The notes below the pieces were generated by a model. That model did no database searches. It was not told the DNA's origin and was given only the letters and a program-made list of their open reading frames with translations. DNA of 56,293 bases from Planctomycetia bacterium. Its GTDB lineage: Bacteria; Planctomycetota; Planctomycetia; Pirellulales; UBA1268. Where the stretch lies: the NCBI GenBank assembly GCA_021414115.1, contig JAIOPD010000086.1, positions 1 through 56,293 of the forward strand. Direction: 5' to 3'. Shown piece by piece: positions 19,465 to 23,518 of the stretch (position 1 is the stretch's first letter; every line of letters starts with the position of its first letter). A program made the position numbers and the translations under genes.

Positions 19465-20136
19465 TCACGAGGCCGGCTTTCGACGCCGCTGCACGCTCCA
19501 GATCGCCGAGGCGATTCCGATGCCGGCCATCACGATCGCGGGTGGCTCAGGGACGGCGACGACGGAGACGCTGTAGGGGCCGATGCTGGGTATCCAAGCG
19601 CCCGTCGAGGTGTTCGTGATCCGCATCGTTCCCAGGTAAGCCCAACCCGACGAGTTTTGGGCCGTCGGCTGGTCCTCGGCCGAGTTGTAATACCAACTCG
19701 CGGGACCTTCAGGCACAATCCAGTAAGACGTCGAGGCGGCAAGTTGAGCGCCGCTGCCGAAAGAGAACTCGTATTTTCCCGTCGTTGTCACATTCACGGC
19801 CGACGACGTGAATAAGGGACTCCCGCCAGGAACGCCGGCGTTGTTTGGGTAAATACTGACCGTTCGCGCGGACGGGGTGTCATTGCTGAAGAGACCAAGC
19901 GTGACGGACCCTACGAGAAGGTTCTGGGTGCCCGAACTAGTCGTGAACCCCTGGGCAAGACTGAAGACCGGATCGGAGAGTGCCCCGCCGCCATAGTCTG
20001 TGTTCGTGGCACTCAGGGCACCGGTGCCGGAGGTCCCGAGATTGCCAAACACGATTTCCGCATGGGCCGACACGCCCGTCATGACGAGGACCAGAAAGGC
20101 AACGATTCGGAACGAGCGGGCTGGACGGAACGACAT
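19465..20136 (-). CDS. PEP-CTERM secreted protein, choice-of-anchor R type
   Basis: 223 residues from ATG 20136, with GCAGG 9 nt upstream; ATG 20145 is an alternative. The signal peptide is MSFRPARSFRIVAFLVLVMT...SAHA. The mature part is beta-rich and matches the choice-of-anchor R pattern: FGNLGTSGTGA, LAQGFTT, VGSVTLGLF, RTVSIYPNNAGVPGGS, TTGKYEFSFGSG. It ends in a PEP-CTERM sorting tail: VPEP, a hydrophobic segment, then RRRK. It should be exported and processed by an exosortase-type system encoded elsewhere. Ligand unknown. Confidence 0.8.
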   Translation of the reverse strand: MSFRPARSFRIVAFLVLVMTGVSAHAEIVFGNLGTSGTGALSATNTDYGGGALSDPVFSLAQGFTTSSGTQNLLVGSVTLGLFSNDTPSARTVSIYPNNAGVPGGSPLFTSSAVNVTTTGKYEFSFGSGAQLAASTSYWIVPEGPASWYYNSAEDQPTAQNSSGWAYLGTMRITNTSTGAWIPSIGPYSVSVVAVPEPPAIVMAGIGIASAIWSVQRRRKPAS

Positions 20137-20261
20137 GGTGTGCATCCTGCAGAAAGAGATCTCAGACCGAGCTCCATTAGGCAATGCAAGTCGCGCGCCG
20201 TTTTTCGCGTTTTCTGAGAAATGCGTTTTTGCTACGGAAATTCGTCGAAAACAAATGCGAA

Positions 20262-20358
20262 TACCCTGTGCCGGGTACTCGCCTGCGGAGCGATTCGCTC
20301 CAGAAGTGGTCGCTCGCGACCAGCGGGTGGAGCGATTTGCTCCACCCCCCATTGGGGG
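20262..20358. repeat. Array of consecutive perfect hairpins upstream of the PEP-CTERM gene
   Basis: Within 97 bp there are five inverted repeats without mismatch: TACCC/GGGTA (20262-20277), GGAGCG-ATT-CGCTCC (20287-20301), TGGTCGC-TC-GCGACCA (20307-20322), a 9-bp stem GGGTGGAGC/GCTCCACCC with loop GATTT (20325-20347), and CCCCC-ATT-GGGGG (20346-20358, overlapping the previous). 20137-20261 is comparatively AT-rich and shows no gene. Confidence 0.65.
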
Positions 20359-20377
20359 CGCAGGGGCAGGCGCGGGC

Positions 20378-20447
20378 GATGAAAAACCCTTTCTTATCGA
20401 CATCGAAGGCGTCGGCCAGGAGTACTGCTCGGGGGGCGGCCCAGATC
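20378..20447 (-). pseudogene. Diverged copy of the 3' end of the MFS-acyltransferase gene
   Basis: About 70 bp that resemble 20826-20895, the end of the neighbouring acyltransferase gene. The translated - strand reads RAVLLADAFDVDKKGFF, against RAVLLADAFDVDKEGFL in the gene. No start or further homologous sequence is present, so it is a fragment. It lies on the far side of repeat R2 copy B from the intact gene. Confidence 0.6.
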
Positions 20448-20460
20448 AAGGCGACGTTGT

Positions 20461-20676
20461 GGGCTGATGCAGCGGAAGTGACAGCCAAGGGGGGCATGTG
20501 GCTGCCGGGCAGCATCCTCCAGATGCTGAAACTCCCGATCGTGAGGAGCCGGGGGTGGCACGCGCAGAAGCCGGGAATGTTTGCGACTCACGAGCGATTC
20601 GCAGTCGGCCGAGCGGGTGGCCTGTAGCAAAATCCCCGGCGCCGAGCATGCCACCCGCGGCGAACCAATCCGGCAC
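20461..20676. repeat. Dispersed ~217-nt repeat (family R2), copy B
   Basis: 216 nt homologous over full length to 11755-11973. The islands GCTGCCGGGCAGCATCCTCC, AGAAGCCGGGAATGTTTGCG, CTGTAGCAAAATCCCCGGC and CGAACCAATCCGGCAC are kept exactly. As in copy A it lies 3' of one - strand gene and 5' of another - strand gene that encodes an exported protein. Confidence 0.75.
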
Positions 20677-20805
20677 CGTCTCAGTGCGACCCGTATACCC
20701 CGCGCTTGCGCTTGGGGCTTCCTGAAAGAGGCGGTGCCGAGAGGTCGATCCGGTGTCGATTCAGTGCGACCCGTATCCCCCGCGCTTGCGCTTGGGGCTT
20801 CCTGA
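20677..20805 (-). repeat. Tandem pair of type I half-elements
   Basis: Two type I cores on the - strand (20698-20717 and 20778-20797) lie in identical 80-bp-spaced contexts: each is preceded by TCAGTGCGACCCGTAT and followed by CTTCCTGA. This looks like a local duplication of a half REPIN-like element. Confidence 0.7.
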
Positions 20806-20815
20806 CGGAAAGCGG

Positions 20816-23518
20816 TCACGGGCGGACGATCAAGAACCCTTCCTTGTCGACATCGAAGGCGTCGGCAAGGAGCACTGCCCGGGGACGGGCCATCGATCCG
20901 TCGGGGCAGGGGGCAGTAGCCGCGATCACGAGCGTGCTCTCGGCATCGTCCGGGAGACCCTGAGATACGAGCGACGGGAGGCCCAGCGGCGGCCGCATCG
21001 TTGCCTGCGGCCAGACGACCACGCCGTTCACCACGCGGCCGACCGTGCCGGGCTTCGTGATCGTTTCGTGGTCCCATTCGATCCGGGCCGGTGGCGTGTT
21101 CATCGCCACGAGGCCGCCCACCTCGCGTGGCGCGTAGGCGACGACAGACTCGATGCCAGAGGCCTCCTTGAAGCGGTCGATCGCCTCGCGGGCCCGCGGG
21201 AGTTCACTCGCGGAGGCGATCGGCAGCACGACGGCGGTGAGGTGCGGAGCCAGACCCTTGATCGATGAAGGTTCGGCGGCCAGGCTGAGCACCTGTTCGA
21301 TCCGCGCCAGCCAGATCGTGGCCTGCTCGCGGTCGAGCGCTTCGGCAAGGCCGCGGGCGGGCGTGGCGGCGTCGAGGACGGTGGCCCGGACGCCGAGTAG
21401 CCGCCCCGCATGCTTGCCGAGCGAGTCGTGGAGCGGATCGCCGACGGCGAGCGACGTGACGAGCCGATCTGTCCGCCGCACCAGGCAGCAGCCGTCAAAC
21501 GCCTCCGCCGTCGCGGCATGCGGATCGAGCCGGCGAGACACGGCCGACGCCGTGATCTCCTGAAGGGCGAGCCGGGCCTGATCGGTATGGGTTCCGACGG
21601 GAAGCGGCGTGCCGAACGTGAGCGTGATCGGCCGTCGCCAGAGCCGCGGCCGCTTCGCGAAGTATTTTCCCTCCGAGAAGGAGAGCGCACTGCCCCAGAG
21701 GCCGTCGATCGAGAGCGGCAGGATCGGGGCCTCGACCTTATCGAGCAGCCACTCGAGGCCGCGTTTGAAGCCGAGCAGCTGGCCCGTTCGCGAGATGCCC
21801 CCTTCGCAGAAGATGCCGATCACGTCGCCGTCGGCGAGGCCCGCCTGGATCGTCTTGAGCGCCGTGCCGATCGACTTCGGCCGCGGATCGAAGAGGATGA
21901 ACCGCCACTGATCGGCGAGCATCCGCATGAACCTTCCCTGGATGTTGGGGCCGTAGACCACCATGCGGATCGGCCGCGGACAGGCGAGCGGCAGCAGAAA
22001 CCCGTCGAGCCACGAGAGGTGGTTGGCCACGACGACCACCGGCCCCGTCGCCGGCATGTTGATCTCGTCGAAGACGCGAAACCGCCAGCCGGCGTTGACG
22101 ATCGACGCGATCACGATCCGGAGCGTGGCCCGCGGCGCGCAATAGACCGCGGCCGCCGTGGCCGCCAGCGAGCAGAGGCCGAAGAGCCCGAACAGGCCGC
22201 GGGCCGACACGAGTGGCTGCGCTGCCTCGCCGCTGCCGAGCGGCGTTCGCAGGCCGCCATAGAGGAGCGACGCCGCGAACATTCCGGCGAACACGAGCAG
22301 GTTCACCGAGGCGAGGATCGAGCCGCGGCGGGCCGGCGGGCTCTGCTCCTGGAGGTAGGCCTCGAGCGGCACGTCGAACATGCCGGCCCCGATCCCCAGC
22401 ACCGCCAGCCAGAAGACCGGCGACGCGAACCGCCAGGTGGATGCATCCGCGGCCCCGGCGGCGAAAATGTCGGTCCGCGACAGCGCCAGGGCGAAGCAGC
22501 CGATCGCCATCACGATCGCGCCGAGCGGCACGAAGCCGAGGTCGACCTTCGAGCCGTCCTCGATGCCGCGTTTCGAGAGCCGGCCGGCGATGAGGCTGCC
22601 GAGGCCGATGCCCCCCACGAGGGCCACGAGCAGCGGCACGATCTGTCCCTGAGATTCCGCCCCCGATTCGAAGGCATATTGATCGACGTTGAGTTGGGCA
22701 ATCGCAGCCAGCCCCCAGAAGAAGACGATGCCAGCGGCCGTGGCGAGCAGCTTCGTCGAGCCGAAGAGTTCGGCGAGGTCACGGGCGGTGCTGGCCAACG
22801 CATTGACCGGGGCCGGTGCGTCGGGGGCGGCGGCGGCCACGCGGGTGAGCCGCAGGGAGGCCAGCCAGCCGGCGATGGCCACGCCGACGAGCGCCACCGC
22901 GGCCGGAATCGCGTGACCGAAGGGCGTGGCGGCGGCCGCGTCGGACGAGAGCGGCGTGACGTCGGCGAGCCAGTTGCCGCCGGCCATCCCCGCGAGCGTG
23001 GCGGCGAGCGTGACCAGGGCGAAGATGCCGTTGGCATTGGAGAGGCTCGCCGCGGGCACGGTTTCCGGAATCGCGCCGAGAATGCTCGGGGCCATCAGTG
23101 CAGCCTGCACACCGATCACCGTCACGGTGCCGAGCAGGAGCCAGAGGCCGACCGGCAGAGCGAGCCACGTGGCCCCCGATCCCGCCCCCCAGCCCACGAC
23201 GATGGCCGCGGCGGCGGCGATCAGGATCTCGGCGAACTTCCCCCATACGATCACCGAGCGTTTCGGAAACCGGTCGGCGAGCCAGCCTGCCAGCCAGGCG
23301 AGCGCCACGAACGGCAGCACGAAGCCGGCGGTGCCGATCGTGAGCACCAGCGCCGTGCCCGCGGCGCCGGCCGCCCGTTTGCCGAGGCCGATCACGAGCC
23401 AGCGGAGGAGGTTGTCGTTGAGGACGGTAAGCACCCGCAGCGCGAGCAGCGGCACGAAGCCGCCCTGGCTCGTGCCGGATGTGGTGCGGGAGGGACTGGA
23501 AGGGGGTGCGAGGTCCAA
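20816..23518 (-). CDS. MFS transporter-1-acylglycerophosphate acyltransferase fusion with degenerate AMP-ligase tail
   Basis: 900 residues from TTG 23518 (AGG 7 nt upstream). Residues about 20-440 form a 12-helix MFS domain of the lysophospholipid transporter type (LTVLNDNLLRW, ADRFPKRSVI, VPLEAYLQEQSP). Residues about 470-660 are a PlsC domain: NHLSWLD (HX4D, His about 500), CEGGISRTG and FGTPLPVG. The last 200 residues resemble a worn remnant of an acyl-adenylating domain, with G.LVAMNTPP...KPGTVGRVVNGVVVWP like the A8-side motifs of such enzymes but no ATP-binding P-loop. The order is that of Aas-like proteins (LplT-PlsC-AMP ligase). Membrane phospholipid remodelling is inferred. Confidence 0.82.
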   Translation of the reverse strand: MDLAPPSSPSRTTSGTSQGGFVPLLALRVLTVLNDNLLRWLVIGLGKRAAGAAGTALVLTIGTAGFVLPFVALAWLAGWLADRFPKRSVIVWGKFAEILIAAAAAIVVGWGAGSGATWLALPVGLWLLLGTVTVIGVQAALMAPSILGAIPETVPAASLSNANGIFALVTLAATLAGMAGGNWLADVTPLSSDAAAATPFGHAIPAAVALVGVAIAGWLASLRLTRVAAAAPDAPAPVNALASTARDLAELFGSTKLLATAAGIVFFWGLAAIAQLNVDQYAFESGAESQGQIVPLLVALVGGIGLGSLIAGRLSKRGIEDGSKVDLGFVPLGAIVMAIGCFALALSRTDIFAAGAADASTWRFASPVFWLAVLGIGAGMFDVPLEAYLQEQSPPARRGSILASVNLLVFAGMFAASLLYGGLRTPLGSGEAAQPLVSARGLFGLFGLCSLAATAAAVYCAPRATLRIVIASIVNAGWRFRVFDEINMPATGPVVVVANHLSWLDGFLLPLACPRPIRMVVYGPNIQGRFMRMLADQWRFILFDPRPKSIGTALKTIQAGLADGDVIGIFCEGGISRTGQLLGFKRGLEWLLDKVEAPILPLSIDGLWGSALSFSEGKYFAKRPRLWRRPITLTFGTPLPVGTHTDQARLALQEITASAVSRRLDPHAATAEAFDGCCLVRRTDRLVTSLAVGDPLHDSLGKHAGRLLGVRATVLDAATPARGLAEALDREQATIWLARIEQVLSLAAEPSSIKGLAPHLTAVVLPIASASELPRAREAIDRFKEASGIESVVAYAPREVGGLVAMNTPPARIEWDHETITKPGTVGRVVNGVVVWPQATMRPPLGLPSLVSQGLPDDAESTLVIAATAPCPDGSMARPRAVLLADAFDVDKEGFLIVRP

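Follow-up and report, generated by a model that had tools for sequence, protein, structure and literature searches.

Closest described systems

Sites for the activator NtrC follow the consensus TGCACC-N5-GGTGCA. Here, we analysed a stretch of planctomycete DNA of 56,293 nucleotides (contig JAIOPD010000086.1; hereafter the window) in which a 97-bp array of inverted repeats precedes a gene for a PEP-CTERM-like protein. The array resembles enhancers of the NtrC/NifA type in its palindromic 17-bp sites, its TG....C-N5-G....CA frame, the phasing of the sites and their predicted action from a distance. It differs from them in its half-site, TGGRGC, in candidate activators that have no receiver domain, and in a predicted regulon of surface proteins rather than nitrogen metabolism.

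Proteobacterial PEP-CTERM genes have a sigma-54 motif and a 17-nt activator motif that is sometimes repeated, and among the phyla with PEP-CTERM proteins, these motifs were common to Proteobacteria only (Haft et al. 2006, PMC1569441). Like this PrsK/PrsR element, the planctomycete array places a 17-nt activator motif upstream of a -24/-12 promoter before PEP-CTERM genes. However, the proteobacterial motif ends in TTTACA, and the planctomycete motif has another sequence; neither TTTACA nor TGTAAA occurs in 20185-20360. Furthermore, two to four palindromes are phased by helix turns here, and the promoter is farther away, at a median of 129 bp from the site centre compared with a spacer of 62.8 nt. 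None of the 22 genomes of the genus has a protein above the TIGR02915 cut-off of 502.6 bits (the best scored 379), which speaks against PrsR membership. The planctomycete array would work like the element of Haft et al. but differs from it in site, spacing and activator.

In the accessible part of the report on Aquincola tertiaricarbonis pepA (PMC9850573), a PEP-CTERM gene likewise has a -24/-12 promoter, there mapped and shown to depend on RpoN (RpoN1); unlike the present case, that system is betaproteobacterial, has PrsK/PrsR and is described in that part with no phased palindromes. DVUA0057 of Desulfovibrio vulgaris differs in being a plasmid-borne response regulator of another lineage, and the accessible part of its source (PMC3333781) describes no such array. 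Exosortase goes unmentioned in the main text of a 2025 survey (PMC12316311) whose sigma-54 regulons include those of planctomycetes. Within the open-licence literature, planctomycetes, sigma-54 and PEP-CTERM are joined only in Haft et al. (2006); nothing was found that links planctomycetes to enhancer-binding proteins and upstream activation, and searches for PEP-CTERM with palindromes and promoters gave only unrelated or proteobacterial work.

We predict that the array is an upstream activating sequence (UAS), or bacterial enhancer, for a sigma-54 enhancer-binding protein, and we put the probability of this reading at about 0.88. The site family, its phasing, the independence of the half-sites, the association with promoters and the conservation of the locus are all seen directly in the sequences. 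For PEP-CTERM genes, the array would be a second enhancer code, unrelated in sequence to the proteobacterial one and used in planctomycetes; its site consensus is clean, its spacings follow the helix, and there are two candidates for its activator.

Inverted repeats and palindromic sites of the window

The original prediction listed five perfect inverted repeats in the 97 bp at 20262-20358, and all five are present. They have stems of 5 bp (20262-20277), 6 bp (20287-20301), 7 bp (20307-20322), 9 bp (20325-20347) and 5 bp (20346-20358, CCCCC-ATT-GGGGG). As the last two share two bases, only four of the five hairpins are non-overlapping. These four compare with a mean of 0.50 (sd 0.65) when the 97 bp are shuffled 2000 times with dinucleotides preserved; five hairpins were reached in none of the shuffles, and the 54 paired bases observed exceed the shuffle maximum of 36. 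Among 5620 segments of 97 nt, taken every 10 nt along the whole 56 kb, 20262-20358 ranks first in hairpin density. The claim that this density is improbable by chance, for which the prediction had itself proposed the shuffle test, is thus borne out.

The hairpins are of mixed kind: two of them are copies of one palindrome, a variant palindrome in the same register forms the middle hairpin, and the outer two fall outside the conserved family. On the minus strand, the first inverted repeat (20262-20277) is the core of a terminator-like hairpin at 20282-20257 with a T-rich tail; the fifth is not conserved as a member of the palindrome family. The two like copies are 17-bp palindromes of the family consensus TGGRGCGAWTCGCYCCA. 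The promoter-proximal predicted UAS palindrome, H1 (CGGAGCGATTCGCTCCA, 20286-20302, centre 20294), matches the consensus save for its first base, and the distal one, H3 (TGGAGCGATTTGCTCCA, 20328-20344, centre 20336), lies 42 bp from H1. The variant palindrome, M (TGGTCGCTCGCGACCA, 20307-20322, centre 20314.5), sits in the slot between them, two helix turns from each neighbour, and this slot is occupied by a canonical site in the orthologous regions L022 and L073. Where M-like variants occur close to a canonical site, 22 of 24 are 19.5-22.5 bp from it; elsewhere, a loose M-like pattern occurs in 182 cases, as expected by chance. The best reading of the inverted repeats is as operator sites in DNA rather than as hairpins in RNA.

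Array architecture and distribution

We compiled 70 distinct arrays from planctomycete loci, leaving out non-planctomycete loci (L133, Streptosporangium; L105, Spartobacteria) and double-fetched arrays before counting. An earlier set of 76 arrays, used below where stated, still included L133, L105 and a few double-fetched arrays. The 70 arrays have one site in 9 cases, two in 33, three in 22 and four in 6, and their 95 adjacent spacings measure 21-23, 31-33, 41-45 or 54 bp. The best period of these spacings is 10.65 bp (R of 0.90), or about one turn of the DNA helix; related arrays were counted as independent despite their kinship, which inflates the nominal significance. The earlier set, with 105 spacings, gave a best period of 10.55 bp, and R never exceeded 0.40 in 300 sets with random spacings. 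Reducing the data to the 12 distinct spacing values still gave an R of 0.80, which none of 2000 random draws equalled. For work on enhancer architecture, the 70 natural arrays offer a ready-made data set with sites two, three, four or five turns apart.

At one variable half-site base, 69 of the 134 sites are symmetric, and 72.1 would be expected if the halves were independent. There is therefore no base-pair covariation, since the half-sites vary independently. Together with the helical phasing, this favours a protein dimer bound to DNA over an RNA stem.

In the window's own genome, a 151-bp query matched at two more places. The original prediction had called for a search for the array in relatives as well, and there it recurs: the pattern GGRGCRAWTYGCYCC is present in 20 of the 22 genomes of the genus at 3-29 copies each, with 0 matches to the reversed-pattern control in all 22. 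The two palindrome-free genomes are G001 and G007. Of the 296 genomes of the order, 24 carry the paired form; these belong to five genera, all within the window's own family. In the GTDB collection, a tandem two-copy pattern matched 89 stretches, mostly in planctomycete MAGs, with the remainder scattered; viral contigs gave 0 matches, which speaks against a phage origin. Many of the scattered matches are actinobacterial pairs with a different outer base. These pairs of GCGGAGCGAWTCGCTCCGC lie near gene starts (L057, L059, L063, L074, L078, L080, L092 and L127) and are probably operators of an unrelated regulator.

Predicted sigma-54 promoters beside the arrays

We scored sigma-54 boxes within 220 nt of the arrays, requiring the GG and GC and at least 10 of 12 positions, in the 62 arrays with 220 nt of flank on each side. 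A box directed away from the array was found in 54 of the 62, compared with 1.58 expected from shuffling; at 11 or more positions, the count was 44 compared with 0.22, and at all 12 positions, it was 12 compared with 0. Boxes directed towards the array numbered 3, and one array only had boxes on both sides. Six of the eight arrays with no promoter are single sites. The median distance of 129 bp between the nearest site centre and the -24 box was taken over 61 cases of the earlier 76-array set.

The window's predicted -24/-12 promoter, CGGCGCGCGACTTGCA (20185-20200, minus strand), matches 10 of 12 positions and keeps both GG and GC. It is weaker than most, with a -24 element of CGGCGC, and it aligns with TGGCACGCGGCTTGC in the orthologous regions L022 and L073. 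Between the window, L022 (genome G005) and L073, the whole block is common and in register, from the end of the preceding gene through the array and promoter to the start codon. As in a sigma-54 UAS, a box with the -24 GG and the -12 GC is found downstream of the sites, and the sites are repeated, helically phased dyads some 80-200 bp upstream. Two genomes have a lone palindrome just downstream of a sigma-54 promoter (L024, position 1323; L033, position 1671), where a bound protein could block transcription.

The upstream neighbour of the array is an MFS/acyltransferase gene in the same direction (20816-23455, minus strand). A degenerate copy of its 3' end, which is a second copy of 20826-20893, adjoins the array at 20375-20442 (minus strand). 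In related genomes, the array lies directly behind the MFS/acyltransferase gene; therefore, an insertion or partial duplication separated the two in the window. A dispersed intergenic repeat of 58 nt is also present between them in two copies that are 90% identical (20668-20725 and 20748-20805), and a core similar to it adjoins the array on contig C108 (L002, ~1400-1440).

Alternative explanations

The original prediction had offered a leader RNA, a protein-binding array or the end of a mobile element. Helical phasing, independent half-sites and the downstream sigma-54 promoter strongly support the protein-binding array. A structured leader or regulatory RNA built of consecutive hairpins is highly improbable. 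The minus strand does fold stably as RNA (-51.3 kcal/mol, z of -4.1, with 0 of 200 shuffles equally stable), as any DNA palindrome also would, but the array lies ~95 bp upstream of the predicted promoter and its paired positions vary independently, with the symmetric sites close to the number expected by independence and no excess of compensatory change. Moreover, GAWTC, which would be the RNA loop, is the most conserved part of the palindrome, and an Rfam search returned no match to the array, with only a tRNA above threshold nearby. It is scarcely credible that a RAYT (Y1) transposase dispersed the palindromes as REP/BIME-like repeats, even though they are clustered, intergenic and present several times per genome, and even though PF01797 occurs in 9 of the 22 genus genomes. 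PF01797 is absent from the window's own genome, where no Y1/RAYT transposase was found, and it does not track copy number (G013, with 25 copies, has none, and G001, with 0 copies, has one). The same arrays are found at the same loci across species, with fixed orientation and distance to sigma-54 promoters, and this conserved position argues equally against the end of a mobile element.

Could the sites instead bind another DNA-binding protein, such as a repressor, and lie near sigma-54 promoters by coincidence? The actinobacterial pairs, which stand upstream of start codons outside any sigma-54 context, would fit such an operator, as would a site 57 nt beyond the promoter box, on its far side, in two loci. 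However, a repressor normally overlaps its promoter, and the median of 129 bp to the -24 box and the near-exclusive association with sigma-54 are what an enhancer-binding protein needs, which makes this reading very unlikely. Tandem intrinsic terminators of the MFS/acyltransferase gene are hardly plausible. They would agree with the position of the array directly behind that gene in relatives and with the one terminator-like hairpin (20282-20257, minus strand), but the palindromes themselves have no T tracts, and arrays of the family elsewhere follow other genes (one of which is, judging by its C-terminus, a probable 3-dehydroquinate synthase), the promoter being the only common feature.

Genes behind the arrays

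The putative regulated gene of the window (19465-20136, minus strand) encodes a secreted protein that has a choice-of-anchor R domain and ends in a PEP-CTERM-like tail, VPEPPAIVMAGIGIASAIWSVQRRRKPAS. This tail combines PEP with a hydrophobic stretch and a final RRR, and a PEPPAIV tail is also found in array-linked homologues. A Pfam search gave no match of this gene to PF07589, and it is not assigned to that family. Over 33 aa, the tail is 61% identical to that of the protein at the orthologous locus L022; the bodies of the two proteins are not similar.

We classified downstream genes in the 76-array set with a simple gene-calling script trained on these loci. Of its 61 arrays with a promoter, 55 have a gene call behind it and 6 have no gene in reach. 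PEP-CTERM-like genes, assigned by tail motif, account for 25 of the 55, at least one of which is spurious (L007, an ECF sigma factor); another 24 are operons that encode small membrane peptides (35-43 aa), receiver-like proteins or both, and the last 6 are other or cut. The small membrane peptides have LTQADVLLCVLPIAVFLSIVSLV-like ends and are the first or second gene behind the arrays (L172, 629-757; L170, 6812-6940; L169, 11122-11241; also L019, L032, L085 and L098). They are apparently an undescribed family. The receiver-like proteins, of ~165 aa and with no output domain, lie in the same operons (L172, 1468-1962; L171, 6965-7540 and 7687-8127) and match Response_reg only below cut-off. In the window's own genome, the last gene of the operon on contig C108 encodes a PEP-CTERM subtilase. 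That genome has ~42 PEP-CTERM matches, of which only a few have an array; therefore, the arrays mark a sub-regulon.

We consider it rather probable that these loci form an undescribed sigma-54 regulon of one planctomycete family, in which a receiver-less activator reads phased palindromes and co-activates PEP-CTERM proteins, the 35-43 aa membrane peptides and the receiver-like proteins, and which evolved apart from PrsK/PrsR. The array would offer a way into the timing of surface-protein production in these lake planctomycetes.

Predicted mechanism and candidate activators

In the predicted mechanism, dimers of an AAA+ enhancer-binding activator would bind H1 (20286-20302) and H3 (20328-20344), and perhaps also M (20307-20322). 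Whole turns between the centres would place these dimers on one face of the helix. The bound activator would then assemble, the ~95 bp of DNA between array and promoter would loop, and ATP hydrolysis would open the sigma-54 closed complex at 20185-20200. Transcription would start from there, and the opened complex would switch on the PEP-CTERM gene at 19465-20136.

The window's own genome has 18 matches to PF00158, the sigma-54 activator domain. We set the enhancer-binding proteins encoded in G000, G017 and G018 against those of the palindrome-free G001 and G007. Seven families are common to all, and two types, A (G000:C52) and B (G018:C6, G017:C52), have no close counterpart in G001 and G007, a contrast that rests on two genomes and perhaps on one shared loss. 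Relatives of B on contigs C10 and C87 likewise have no close counterpart there. All 20 palindrome-bearing genomes of the genus encode A at no less than 77% identity, with two copies truncated, and B at no less than 71%, contig-end fragments in G000 and G015 included. A and B are also present in three other genomes with arrays, reached via loci L069, L087 and L052. An argument from distribution in favour of B was dropped, as A is present in these three as well (in two pieces in G033 and at 64% in G035), and A and B are not separable by genome distribution.

Both proteins consist of a sigma-54 ATPase domain and a Fis-type HTH, with no receiver. Enhancer-binding proteins with a GAFTGA-type loop, as a sigma-54 UAS calls for, are encoded: the sequences retrieved with B have GAFTGA in 17 of 20, GSFTGA in 2 and neither in 1 (one of the 20 being the paralogue on C87), and those of A have GSFTGA in 20 of 20. 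The best PDB match to the HTH of B is NtrC (1ntc, E of 0.00037). With the TG....C-N5-G....CA frame of the sites, this is a weak reason for slightly preferring B (G018:C6) over A (G000:C52) as the candidate activator of the array.

Two more receiver-less enhancer-binding proteins, on G000:C10 and C87, adjoin PEP-CTERM genes (L240, 1860-4316; L239, 1-2842). The one at G000:C10 was rejected as the activator of the array, as the intergenic region between it and the PEP-CTERM gene contains a sigma-54 box but lacks the palindrome of the arrays. Its gene is divergent from the PEP-CTERM gene, whose sigma-54 box is CGGCACGTGACTTGCA, and the upstream sites there are of another kind.
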